Origin: a virus
Strand: one strand, 5' to 3'
IMG/VR virus record: IMGVR_UViG_3300024335_000023
Coordinates: 1-36,948 of that record
Length of the DNA stretch: 36,948 nt
The notes below the pieces were generated by a model. The model saw only the letters and a program-made list of their open reading frames with translations, made no database searches and was not told the origin of the DNA. Positions 2,828 through 10,953 of the stretch are shown piece by piece. Every line of letters starts with the position of its first letter. Position 1 is the first letter of the stretch. The translations under genes were made by a program, and so were the position numbers.

Positions 2828-3023
2828 CCTACGCCCGACCATCCTGTCTTATCTCCGCATCATCCCTGCTGCCAACACCGACATGATTGCGCGCGAACTG
2901 GGCCTGTCGCATAGGGCAGTGCAGGACACGCTGCACCGAATGGACGATGCTGGCGACGTATTTTTGCGCTGCGGATGGTATCGGCTAAGTGAAGCTGCTA
3001 AGACCTCGCTTGCAAGAGGCTGA
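2820..3023 (+). CDS. Small winged-helix DNA-binding protein
   Basis: The product has 67 residues that look like one winged helix-turn-helix: ILSYLRIIPAANTDMIAREL as the first helices, LSHRAVQDTLHRMDDAG as the recognition helix, and VFLRCGWYRLS as the wing. No effector domain is present. It overlaps the nuclease gene, so the two are co-translated, and the structured RNA candidate begins just after its stop. It could regulate nearby promoters such as the one with an inverted repeat at 3523-3539. Confidence 0.7.
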   Translation: MDDLRPTILSYLRIIPAANTDMIARELGLSHRAVQDTLHRMDDAGDVFLRCGWYRLSEAAKTSLARG

Positions 3024-3025
3024 AA

Positions 3026-3476
3026 AGTGCTTTAGAAAGAAAAGCGGCGGCGAGTGCTACAAACACTGCGCCGCCTTGAAGGCGCGAAGTTCTGGGGAGT
3101 TCGTCCGCGCCTTGACCGAAGATATACCGTAGATACGGGCGCGCTTCAAGAACCCTCCTGACTTTTGACGCTTTGAAAGAAAAGCGAAGCAGAAACAGGC
3201 AGGCCTTTCCTCAATAGGTCTATTCACCGGGGACCAACCCCACCCCGTCTTGACCCGGTCCTAACTAGGCCAAGACAGAAGCGCGACAATAAACCCACCG
3301 ACCGATGCGCATACTGGCGTACAGTTCGGGGACCGAGAAATCGGGGCAGGAGAAAACCCTGCGGGCAGCGGCTGGCCACCGATAAAAGGCATCGCGTGGA
3401 TACGGTGAAGGAAGTGTTAGGGCTGTCCTGTATATCGGGGGCAGTAGCGGGGGACGGCTATTGTCTAAAGCTAACT
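3026..3476 (+). ncRNA. Candidate large structured RNA (about 450 nt)
   Basis: No plausible gene lies between 3024 and 3620, but 3026-3476 is full of helices. A closing helix pairs 3029-3036 (GCTTTAGA) with 3464-3471 (TCTAAAGC), extended by AGT 3026-3028 with ACT 3474-3476 across a 2-nt bulge. Inside are 3046-3056/3064-3075 (11 bp, one bulged G), 3079-3086/3106-3113 (8 bp), 3127-3138 (CCGT/ACGG), 3169-3186 (6 bp) and 3201-3206/3216-3221. Further on are 3229-3241, 3247-3252/3271-3276, 3313-3325, 3333-3344 (CCGA, GAAA loop, TCGG), 3346-3362, 3376-3399 (8 bp, one bulge) and 3421-3428/3452-3459. G-U pairs in the 3201 and 3421 helices work only if the plus strand is the RNA. I cannot match it to GOLLD, ROOL or another known class by eye. 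Confidence 0.6.
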
Positions 3477-3501
3477 CACTGATAAAAGTTACAAAAAGTT
3501 G

Positions 3502-3539
3502 TTGACCTTGACTTAGGTGTTTGCAATTATGCGAATTGC
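3502..3539 (+). promoter_or_regulatory. Candidate promoter with inverted-repeat operator
   Basis: TTGACC (3502-3507) is followed 17 bp later by AATTAT (3525-3530). The -10 region lies inside a perfect inverted repeat, GCAATT-ATGCG-AATTGC (3523-3539). This is a typical placement for a repressor site controlling the gene at 3621. The -10 match is weak, so the operator reading is better supported than the promoter. Confidence 0.4.
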
Positions 3540-3620
3540 GCGGCTAGGCTGATTCCCGAAAAGGTGGTTCTCCCCCACCCTGCCAGCGCATCATAGGGGG
3601 TGCGCCAAGGAGGGCGATTT

Positions 3621-4460
3621 ATGACTTGTATCAGTAAAGAAAAAGACAAGATTGAAGTCGAGATAATCATGTCAATGCTCATGCGTTCTGCGGGAAAGCA
3701 CTTGCACAAAGAGAAGAAAACTAAAGACAAAATTTTTTTGGACATGGGGGCGTTCTTAGAAAAGAAGCCAGAGTTTCCAAGTTCTTTCTATGTTTGTGAC
3801 AGGACTACTGATGAGCGTTTGTACACTACATCCCCAGAAGATATTGTTGTGTCTCCAGCCAAAGCAATCGGTGAGAGAATTGAAATAGCTTGTCTCGATG
3901 ACGGTGGTGTACTGAAGTGGATGTGTCTGAAGCCGATAAGGCCGCCAAAAGGAGTGGCTGCTATAACAAACATGCCTGTTGATTGGTTTTCTCTGCACTC
4001 AAGGAAATATGCCCCTGATGGATTGGATTGTTACGTCAAGCAGCCAATGGCAATCACTAAAGATGGCATTGTCTCAAGGATTAAGCCGTTAGGTTGGAGT
4101 GGGTTTGACTCTAAAAAATTTCAGTCGGAACAAACGGAATATTTGTGTTTGATACTTTCAGTGTTTGAGGATGCAGTTAGGTCAGACTCGTATCTTGCTA
4201 CTGTTGAAGAGCATGTAAAGTTGATGTTTCCTGTTGGGTCGGATGCTCTGAAGGCATTTTTCGCAATGCGTGATGGATATTGCAATACGCCAACGGGACG
4301 AAAAAACCCTATTTTGCACTGGTGTTCTGAGCATCTGAGGAAAACGGGAGGCAATCGTGCTTCTATTGTGTCAGCGCATAAGCGCGGGGCAACTGAGTTT
4401 GCATGTGGCCCGATGACGCTTACCATTCAGGAAAACGAGGGTTATTCAAAATATGCTTGA
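3621..4460 (+). CDS. Hypothetical protein, AT-richer than neighbours (279 aa)
   Basis: I chose the ATG at 3621 because AAGGAGG lies 7 nt upstream; an in-frame GTG at 3600 lacks such a site. The product starts MTCISKEKDKIEVEIIMSML, has a lysine-rich early region, a middle with several Cys and Trp residues, and ends in HKRGATEFACGPMTLTIQEN. I see no transmembrane segment or known catalytic motif. By eye the DNA is around 40-45 % GC, clearly lower than flanking genes, which suggests recent acquisition. It overlaps the next start by 8 bp, so it is read with the putative replication genes. The function is unknown. Confidence 0.75.
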   Translation: MTCISKEKDKIEVEIIMSMLMRSAGKHLHKEKKTKDKIFLDMGAFLEKKPEFPSSFYVCDRTTDERLYTTSPEDIVVSPAKAIGERIEIACLDDGGVLKWMCLKPIRPPKGVAAITNMPVDWFSLHSRKYAPDGLDCYVKQPMAITKDGIVSRIKPLGWSGFDSKKFQSEQTEYLCLILSVFEDAVRSDSYLATVEEHVKLMFPVGSDALKAFFAMRDGYCNTPTGRKNPILHWCSEHLRKTGGNRASIVSAHKRGATEFACGPMTLTIQENEGYSKYA

Positions 4461-5395: not shown

Positions 5396-5881
5396 ATGAC
5401 AGAAATCACAATCTCTAACGTACACGACCGAGGCTTTGCCTTCGCAGTTACACCTACCGGCGAGCAAGTATTCATCCCGCCACACACGCTTGCAGGCAAC
5501 ACTCTGCGAGCTGGCGATACAATCAAGGCAGTGCTGGTGGTCAACCCGTCAGACCGTTCTGCGCACGGTACGCCTTGGATGGCGGTGCGGCTTGATGGTG
5601 ACGAAGAAACCGTCGCGCATGTGACCGACAGCAACCTCGCGGACGACATCGAGGCGCGTGACAAGGCGGTTCTGGAGACCGTGAATGAGAACGTCTACGT
5701 CACAACCGCCGAGATTGCCACGACGGTCGGCATTGACCCTAAGAGCGCAGGCAACAGCGCCTTGCGCCTGTTCAACGCTGGCAAGATTGCCAAGGCGGAC
5801 GTTTACGCCAAGCCCGGTCAGGCTCGGTCATCATTCACGCTCTGGGCGGCTGACGCCAAGCGCTTTGTGGAGGAAGCATAA
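5396..5881 (+). CDS. Cold-shock-like OB-fold plus winged-helix protein
   Basis: The product has 161 residues in two parts. Residues 1-67 resemble a cold-shock/S1-type OB fold: NVHDRGFAFAVTPTGEQVFI then AGDTIKAVLVVNPSDR, with the aromatic and glycine pattern of nucleic-acid-binding barrels. Residues about 85-160 form a helix-turn-helix (VYVTTAEIATTVGIDPKSAG then SALRLFNAGKIAKADVY). Such a protein could bind single-stranded nucleic acid and act in transcription or RNA handling early in infection. AAGGAA lies upstream of the ATG. Its stop overlaps the next start (TAATG). Confidence 0.7.
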   Translation: MTEITISNVHDRGFAFAVTPTGEQVFIPPHTLAGNTLRAGDTIKAVLVVNPSDRSAHGTPWMAVRLDGDEETVAHVTDSNLADDIEARDKAVLETVNENVYVTTAEIATTVGIDPKSAGNSALRLFNAGKIAKADVYAKPGQARSSFTLWAADAKRFVEEA

Positions 5882-10581: not shown

Positions 10582-10953
10582 ATGAGAAAAGAAACACGCA
10601 AAATTGCAATCGCATTCGCATCACGCAAGGCGGCCCGCGCCGCGCGCACCACGACTGACGGTAAGGCCGTCGAATTGCACGGGAACCGAATTGCATGGTT
10701 CACGCCGCAAGACACCGGAACCGGGCTAAATAACATAGCGTTTACTCTTGCGGGCTGGCCAAGCGTCACGACGCGCGAAAGACTGAATGGCATTTTGACC
10801 GTTCTTGGCTTTCCCTACGTTGGCATTGCGCAACGGCAAGGCCGACAATGGGTTGTCTATAAGGGTCAAAAGGTATGCGAGGTTGAGCCTAACGACGTGT
10901 TCACGTTGTCAGACTTGCGCCAATGGGTAGCGGAAAGCGAGGTGGCGGCATGA
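10582..10953 (+). CDS. Hypothetical basic protein (123 aa)
   Basis: I placed the start at the ATG 10582 because it follows the AAGAAAGAAAGAACC leader shared with the gene at 9990; an upstream in-frame ATG at 10531 lies inside the preceding gene. The product starts MRKETRKIAIAFASRKAARA, is basic and then beta-rich (GNRIAWFTPQDTGTG, QWVVYKGQKVCEV). I recognise no family; a nucleic-acid-binding role would fit the charge only loosely. Confidence 0.7.
   Translation: MRKETRKIAIAFASRKAARAARTTTDGKAVELHGNRIAWFTPQDTGTGLNNIAFTLAGWPSVTTRERLNGILTVLGFPYVGIAQRQGRQWVVYKGQKVCEVEPNDVFTLSDLRQWVAESEVAA

Follow-up and report, generated by a model that had tools for sequence, protein, structure and literature searches.

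A large structured RNA with a predicted three-strand element in phages and other mobile elements of Rhodobacteraceae

What is the intergenic stretch around positions 3026 to 3476 of this virus record of 36,948 bases (the window, by which we mean the whole stretch of DNA analysed)? A sequence-only reading had described it as gene-free and as a candidate for a large structured RNA on the plus strand, comparable to the phage RNAs GOLLD and ROOL in size and density and possibly of a new class. Our analysis leads us to favor, with a probability of about 0.6, a stand-alone trans-acting two-state RNA gene of about 430 nt that occurs in mobile elements of Rhodobacteraceae. That a real structured RNA is present we regard as next to certain.

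The structural genes of the window resemble those of Roseobacter phages, such as CRP-811. Upstream of the RNA are a nuclease gene and then a small helix-turn-helix ORF ending at 3023. Downstream are a 279-amino-acid ORF (3621-4460) without family assignment and an O-like replication gene, and the terminase genes are about 8.5 kb away from the RNA. No tRNA was found in the window, and neither ARAGORN nor an Rfam search with cmscan detected a tmRNA there. The region is gene-free as described: positions 3024 to 3600 carry no conserved protein frame, and any given frame stays open across the RNA in at most 16 of 39 relatives.

In Rhodobacteraceae, we found about 60 relatives of the RNA, carried by phages, phage-like satellites and small integrating elements. 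The closest relative, in an IMG/VR phage (L003), is 98.6% identical over 3044-3478. The RNA is more conserved than the neighboring genes, as the nuclease gene of L003 is 89.4% identical to that of the window (75.5% at third codon positions), the neighboring ERF gene 88.3%, and a small ORF 76.6%. The match stops near 3478, and beyond it L003 carries a different, shorter gene. A distant match (64% over 258 nt) lies on a plasmid-borne element of Rhodobacteraceae S2214. A pattern of the shared core matched 22 viral and 57 genomic stretches, about 30 of which share the flanks too. Most of the remaining matches, including those in Bacteroidota, Planctomycetota and Pseudomonas, have no conserved flanks and were taken as chance.

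We built two covariance models, R1 for the core and R2 for the H1 domain. Under strict filters, R1 matched 16 of 395 genomes from the family to which a Ruegeria centre belongs; of 385 genomes of the class, it matched that centre alone. The distribution is sporadic. Every R1 member had R2 just upstream (39/39). In an independent test, viral contigs were scanned with H1-domain patterns that excluded the core, and 61 new contigs were searched with both models. The same 21 contigs matched R2 and R1, with R1 just downstream. The INPHARED phages yielded no convincing relative. A related phage (L004) has the nuclease gene (71% identity) and the downstream replication gene without the RNA, which is therefore an accessory part. 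Relatives are present in the cultured strains Shimia gijangensis, Cribrihabitans marinus, Roseovarius marisflavi and Ruegeria, in which expression, structure and phenotype can be examined directly.

The following limits were assigned to the RNA and the sites around it.

3044-3471, plus strand: structured RNA with putative ends (conservation with L003, models R2 and R1, fold z of -3.59).
3010-3038, plus strand: putative promoter, TTGCAA (3010-3015), a 17-nt spacer and TAGAAA (3033-3038), with the same layout in L205, L193, L043, L025 and L029.
3502-3530, plus strand: promoter-like site separating the RNA from the next gene, with TTGACC and AATTAT 17 nt apart; the scan found 1 site versus 0.3 expected.

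The RNA probably runs from about 3044 to about 3471, approximately 430 nt; we infer its 3' end near 3471 from conservation only, and no terminator was found after it. In the full-length relatives, TTG is aligned in all six, upstream of hairpin A and 17 nt ahead of a -10-like hexamer. The hexamers, read by eye, are TTGCAA-TAGAAA in the window, TTGCAA-TAATCT in L205, TTGCCT-TACAGT in L193, TTGTAG-TAGAAG in L043, TTGACT-TAAAAA in L025 and TTGACT-TAAGAA in L029. A scan for strict consensus promoters did not flag 3010-3038.

The sequence-only reading had closed the RNA with a perfect 8-bp helix between its two ends (3029-3036/3464-3471). Only the window and L003 have this helix in perfect form. L043 has a mismatch in it, L025 and L029 retain part of it, and L205 and L193 have lost it, with no compensating changes. 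Its 5' strand overlaps the conserved -10 box of the putative promoter and would thus probably not be transcribed. When the helix was cut open (3044-3471), the fold was not weakened (z of -3.59). Because of the promoter overlap and the missing covariation, we concluded that this helix is not part of the predicted RNA. A further helix, between UCG after the core and CGG, was discarded as well, since by eye it is lost in relatives.

The plus strand of 3026-3476 folds at -175.4 kcal/mol, better than 100 of 100 dinucleotide shuffles (z of -3.51); the minus strand reaches a z of -2.64 against dinucleotide shuffles. The helices contain 42 G-U cells versus 8 A-C cells. A-C cells are what wobble pairing on the opposite strand would give, and the excess of G-U cells therefore identifies the plus strand as the functional RNA, in line with the strand first proposed. 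Within it, we predict an organization that had been missed, comprising a 5' domain specific to a subfamily, the H1 domain, and a core that combines a pseudoknot with a three-strand element. The hairpins outside the H1 domain and core helices are as follows.

3046-3075, plus strand: hairpin A, 3046-3056/3064-3075; four relatives each have a different arm pair in its inner stem, which is weak evidence alone.
3079-3113, plus strand: hairpin B, 3079-3086/3106-3113; six different arm pairs in six relatives.
3127-3138, plus strand: hairpin C, 3127-3130/3135-3138; 23/24 paired versus 19.6 shuffled, with 14 of 2,000 shuffles as high.
3169-3186, plus strand: hairpin D, 3169-3174/3181-3186; 36/36 paired versus 31.6 shuffled, with 28 of 2,000 shuffles as high.
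3201-3221, plus strand: hairpin E, including the G-U pair 3203/3219; by eye, the pairing seems to be kept with other letters.
3333-3344, plus strand: GAAA tetraloop hairpin, 3333-3336/3341-3344, in the window sequence and variable in relatives.

Hairpins A to D make up the 5' domain, which is specific to the subfamily of the window and covaries among the six full-length relatives. Hairpin B is paired in 39 of 42 cases versus 19.0 shuffled, a level reached by 3 of 2,000 shuffles. Several helices named at the outset are indeed present in the sequence: the 11-bp stem 3046-3056/3064-3075, the GAAA tetraloop closing CCGA/TCGG (3333-3336/3341-3344), and the hairpin with the G-U pair 3203/3219. Another, 3421-3428/3452-3459, can form in the window but by eye is not kept in L205 or L043; relatives retain other pairings of 3423-3428 instead. 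The features of the core are listed here together with the H1 domain.

3226-3301, plus strand: H1 domain (model R2), with helix H1 at 3247-3252/3271-3276 followed by the conserved sequences AGAAGCGCGAC and AACCCACCG.
3339-3451, plus strand: core domain, matched by model R1 with 102.3 bits; about 60 members.
3346-3362, plus strand: hairpin H6, 3346-3350/3358-3362; both sides change in 4 of 5 pairs, in each of the two sets.
3363-3368, plus strand: 5' copy, GGGCAG, just before the core; pairs with the middle strand as H7a.
3369-3390, plus strand: pseudoknot, S1 3369-3371/3379-3381 and S2 3375-3377/3388-3390.
3423-3428, plus strand: middle strand, CUGUCC, complementary to both copies.
3439-3444, plus strand: 3' copy, GGGCAG, after the core; pairs with the middle strand as H7b.

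Covariation was compared with shuffles and slid partners, controls in which the tree is not modelled. For H1, 86 double-changed cells were counted versus 20.6 shuffled and 15 to 26 with slid partners, and each of the seven modelled pairs shows changes on both sides. In the core, H6, H7a, S1 and S2 together were 98.3% paired, with 68 double-changed cells versus 13.9 shuffled and at most 9 with slid partners; the independent set of 21 was 96.7% paired, with 31 double-changed cells versus 10.6. The models to which the underlying alignments were fitted include H6 and H7a (R1) or H1 (R2), which favors those helices; S1, S2 and H7b lie outside both models, and H7b, absent from every model, covaries too. 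The third pair of S1 varies between GC, AU and UA, S2, supported by few changes, has one double change, and the covariation of both is thin in the independent set. Covariation of the H1 domain and of the core helices taken together goes far beyond the controls. These comparisons show the H1 domain, hairpin H6, stem S1 (through one covarying pair) and the three-strand element, in which both copies are complementary to the middle strand and change along with it.

The three-strand element was sought in unaligned sequences under a rule of at least 5 of 6 pairs for each copy. The rule fits 37 of 39 members in the first set and 20 of 21 in the independent set, or 57 of 60 overall, a count that is not a probability, the search having kept the best-scoring triple per sequence; three of the 60 members do not fit it. 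In all but two members, both copies have the same sequence and vary in concert (GGGAAG, GGGCAG, GGATAG, GGAAGG, GGCAAG, GGCAGG and GGACAG). For L031 and L091, the script picked a G-run for the 3' copy, and the copies of L082 differ at one letter. Since H7a and H7b are mutually exclusive, the RNA would either switch or pair its copies between molecules. Forced folds, computed without the pseudoknot, favored H7b over H7a by a median of 5 kcal/mol, so that H7a would need help from binding or tertiary contacts.

The surroundings of the RNA differ among elements. In the phages, it follows the nuclease gene in the window and L025, and the gene downstream is variable. Overall, the downstream genes are unrelated and include the 279-amino-acid ORF, a ParB-like gene, methyltransferases, TerL, TerS and host genes. 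TerL is directly downstream of the RNA in L031, L033, L038, L039, L074, L130 and L131, and TerS in L021 and L057. The next gene is on the same strand in the window, L025, L026, L040, L021 and the TerL group. L130 combines an integrase, an AlpA-like protein, the RNA, TerL, HNH, capsid, protease and portal within about 10 kb (several roles assigned by eye), with no tail genes recognised, and resembles capsid-forming satellites. The TerL-HNH-capsid block is shared by L031, L033, L038, L039, L074 and L131, and L039 additionally has a tape-measure-like ORF.

Other elements are as small as about 6.4 kb and have little but recombinases around the RNA. They encode a serine recombinase (PF00239, PF07508), two tyrosine recombinases (PF00589) and a gene that we call X, and the RNA is divergent, at the far end. 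In these elements, tRNA-fMet lies at the other end from the RNA, intact in L126, L128 and L129 and as its 3' part in L071, L082 and L127. Here the RNA is at the element end, before unrelated host genes, and no recognisable packaging gene is found beside it. The sequence ahead of the tRNA in L128 looks like the end of a 5S rRNA. We also considered whether the tRNA-fMet elements use the 3' end of the RNA as their attachment site. Conservation does end at this point, but no empty site was found (the assembly breaks at the tRNA side), and the idea was dropped.

Unrelated downstream genes, the promoter-like site after the RNA and the element-end positions together argue for an independent gene that acts in trans from its own promoter, and we consider this probable. 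It could instead be a cis-acting leader (a riboswitch, attenuator or antitermination RNA), with the core as aptamer or polymerase-binding element, H7a as closing stem and H7b as expression platform. Aptamer stems that compete with a hairpin are usually laid out in this way, as 5' copy, middle strand and 3' copy. In many phage loci (the window, L025, L026, L040, L021 and the TerL group) the RNA and the next gene share a strand, and several next genes are methyltransferases. Yet a leader would have to serve unrelated genes from which a promoter-like site separates it, would be long for such an RNA at 430 nt, has no T run after H7b, and in the tRNA-fMet elements would stand at the element end ahead of unrelated host genes. 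We therefore judge a leader unlikely. A role in packaging or packaging competition, in the manner of phi29 pRNA, used by phages and borrowed by satellites, seems quite improbable. It would suit the copies directly upstream of TerL or TerS, but not the window, with its terminase genes about 8.5 kb distant, or the tRNA-fMet elements, with no recognisable packaging gene beside the RNA. Like phi29 pRNA, the RNA is found in phages and several copies adjoin terminase genes, but it has no terminase linkage in the window. The size and fold of phi29 pRNA also differ from those of the window RNA.

The remaining explanations carry little weight. Inverted repeats of a DNA-level element, such as a packaging site, an attachment site or a replication origin, might mimic an RNA, and the location next to terminase genes and at the termini of integrating elements would fit one. 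We hold this to be very improbable, since G-U cells outnumber A-C cells 42 to 8, and a pseudoknot with mutually exclusive helices is unexpected in a DNA site. A large compact fold in phages recalls a ribozyme or an intron remnant (group I or II intron, RNase P-like or HEARO-like), but the position is between genes and not within one, and no Rfam model matched at E values up to 10 in the window and L031; such an origin is more remote still. Finally, the minus strand too folds better than its shuffles (z of -2.6), as chance folding of a G+C-rich stretch might produce. Covariation in about 60 relatives and conservation above that of the neighboring genes refute chance folding, to which we assign practically no probability.

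For the preferred reading, an independent trans-acting RNA, we propose a two-state exchange as the working principle and give it even odds. The pseudoknot core sits between the 5' copy and the middle strand, so that binding may decide which copy holds the middle strand. With a ligand or protein occupying the core, the 5' copy and middle strand would close as H7a beneath it; with the core unoccupied, the middle strand would form hairpin H7b with the 3' copy. One copy would always be free in either state. The free strand or the exposed core might then act on a host, phage or competing-element target, a step that is speculative. An extension that we offer tentatively, and think somewhat unlikely, is a device common to phages, capsid-encoding satellite-like elements and recombinase-based elements, in which the two near-identical strands compete for one partner strand, either intramolecularly, as a switch gated by binding to the pseudoknot core, or through strand-swapped RNA oligomers, and which is used against the host or each other. 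The three-strand exchange element can be tested by simple swap mutants.

Large structured phage RNAs are few. GOLLD, a large structured RNA found in phages and prophages, is better conserved in its 3' part than in its 5' part, and ROOL is a large structured RNA with pseudoknots, also of phages and prophages (PMC12286853). The RNA described here likewise occurs in phages and viral contigs, as GOLLD does, but is about 430 nt long, compared with more than 800 nt for GOLLD and about 660 nt for ROOL. ROOL lies near tRNA islands. In the present family, the window has no tRNA, tRNA-fMet stands at the far end of three elements, and L036 contains tRNAs. We have not seen a three-strand element described for GOLLD or ROOL, and neither Rfam model matched, at gathering score or at E values up to 10. 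The smtA motif ('Soda Lake RNA') is a covarying bacterial RNA of more than 350 nt near a methyltransferase gene (PMC11109978). It shares with some loci here the large size, the covariation and the neighboring methyltransferase gene, but is reported only in Thioalkalivibrio; we set it apart by description, not by sequence. Riboswitches and attenuators likewise have a compact conserved core, and the 3' strand of its closing stem can instead pair with a copy located downstream. They differ from the present RNA in its unrelated downstream genes, likely own promoter, much greater length and lack of a T run after the alternative hairpin.

With cmscan, no Rfam family reached its gathering score in the window, and none was found for the RNA in the relatives tested or, at E values up to 10, in the window and L031. 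Riboswitch models did not match in these two at E values up to 10, and the Rfam models of group I and group II introns, RNase P and HEARO gave no match. Matches to AgrB and HOXA11 in the relaxed search were far below threshold and were rejected. A resemblance to the SAM-I core (CUGGCC...GGCA) was set aside too, as no SAM riboswitch reached an E value of 10. We are very confident that the class is absent from Rfam. We found no description in the openly licensed papers searched, and an earlier publication elsewhere is possible. The RNA thus seems to form a new class among the large phage RNAs, similar in kind to GOLLD and ROOL but a member of neither. The original proposal of a large structured plus-strand RNA is borne out by strong covariation and by conservation above that of the neighboring genes, and its suggestion of a new class agrees with the searches.

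Additional observations concern sequences related to the core and the genes around the RNA. The core without the H1 domain was seen in L023, L032, L034, L035, L041, L073, L076, L090 and L022, the sources being Hyphomicrobiaceae, Beijerinckiaceae, viral contigs and a Cupriavidus plasmid. The first eight, from other alphaproteobacterial orders, are only tentatively regarded as kin of the RNA, having been fetched with the core motif itself. The match on the Cupriavidus plasmid is weaker still (E of 0.2).

The slot after the RNA (3479-4460 in the window, 6973-7287 in L003) holds the 279-amino-acid ORF in the window and an 82-amino-acid ORF in L003; in L025 it holds a ParB-like ORF (by eye), and in L040 a DNA methyltransferase. 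A general link to methyltransferases and SAM was considered and rejected, as it was seen in four loci only. Gene X belongs to a family of about 200 to 320 amino acids and is divergent from the RNA in 11 loci. It lies at -1416 to -583 relative to the core in L127, has relatives in L036, L061, L066, L071, L091, L124, L126, L128 and L129, and gave no convincing match in Pfam or PADLOC. Just after the RNA in L127 (about 10659-10729, minus strand) is a dispersed intergenic repeat of about 50 to 70 nt, with copies in many Ruegeria genomes. In the window, the int-alpA sRNA family has a sub-threshold match at 3538-3600 (28.7 bits versus a gathering score of 35.8), beginning about 7 nt past the promoter-like site at 3502-3530. 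L025 has an int-alpA RNA above threshold at 5515-5579.
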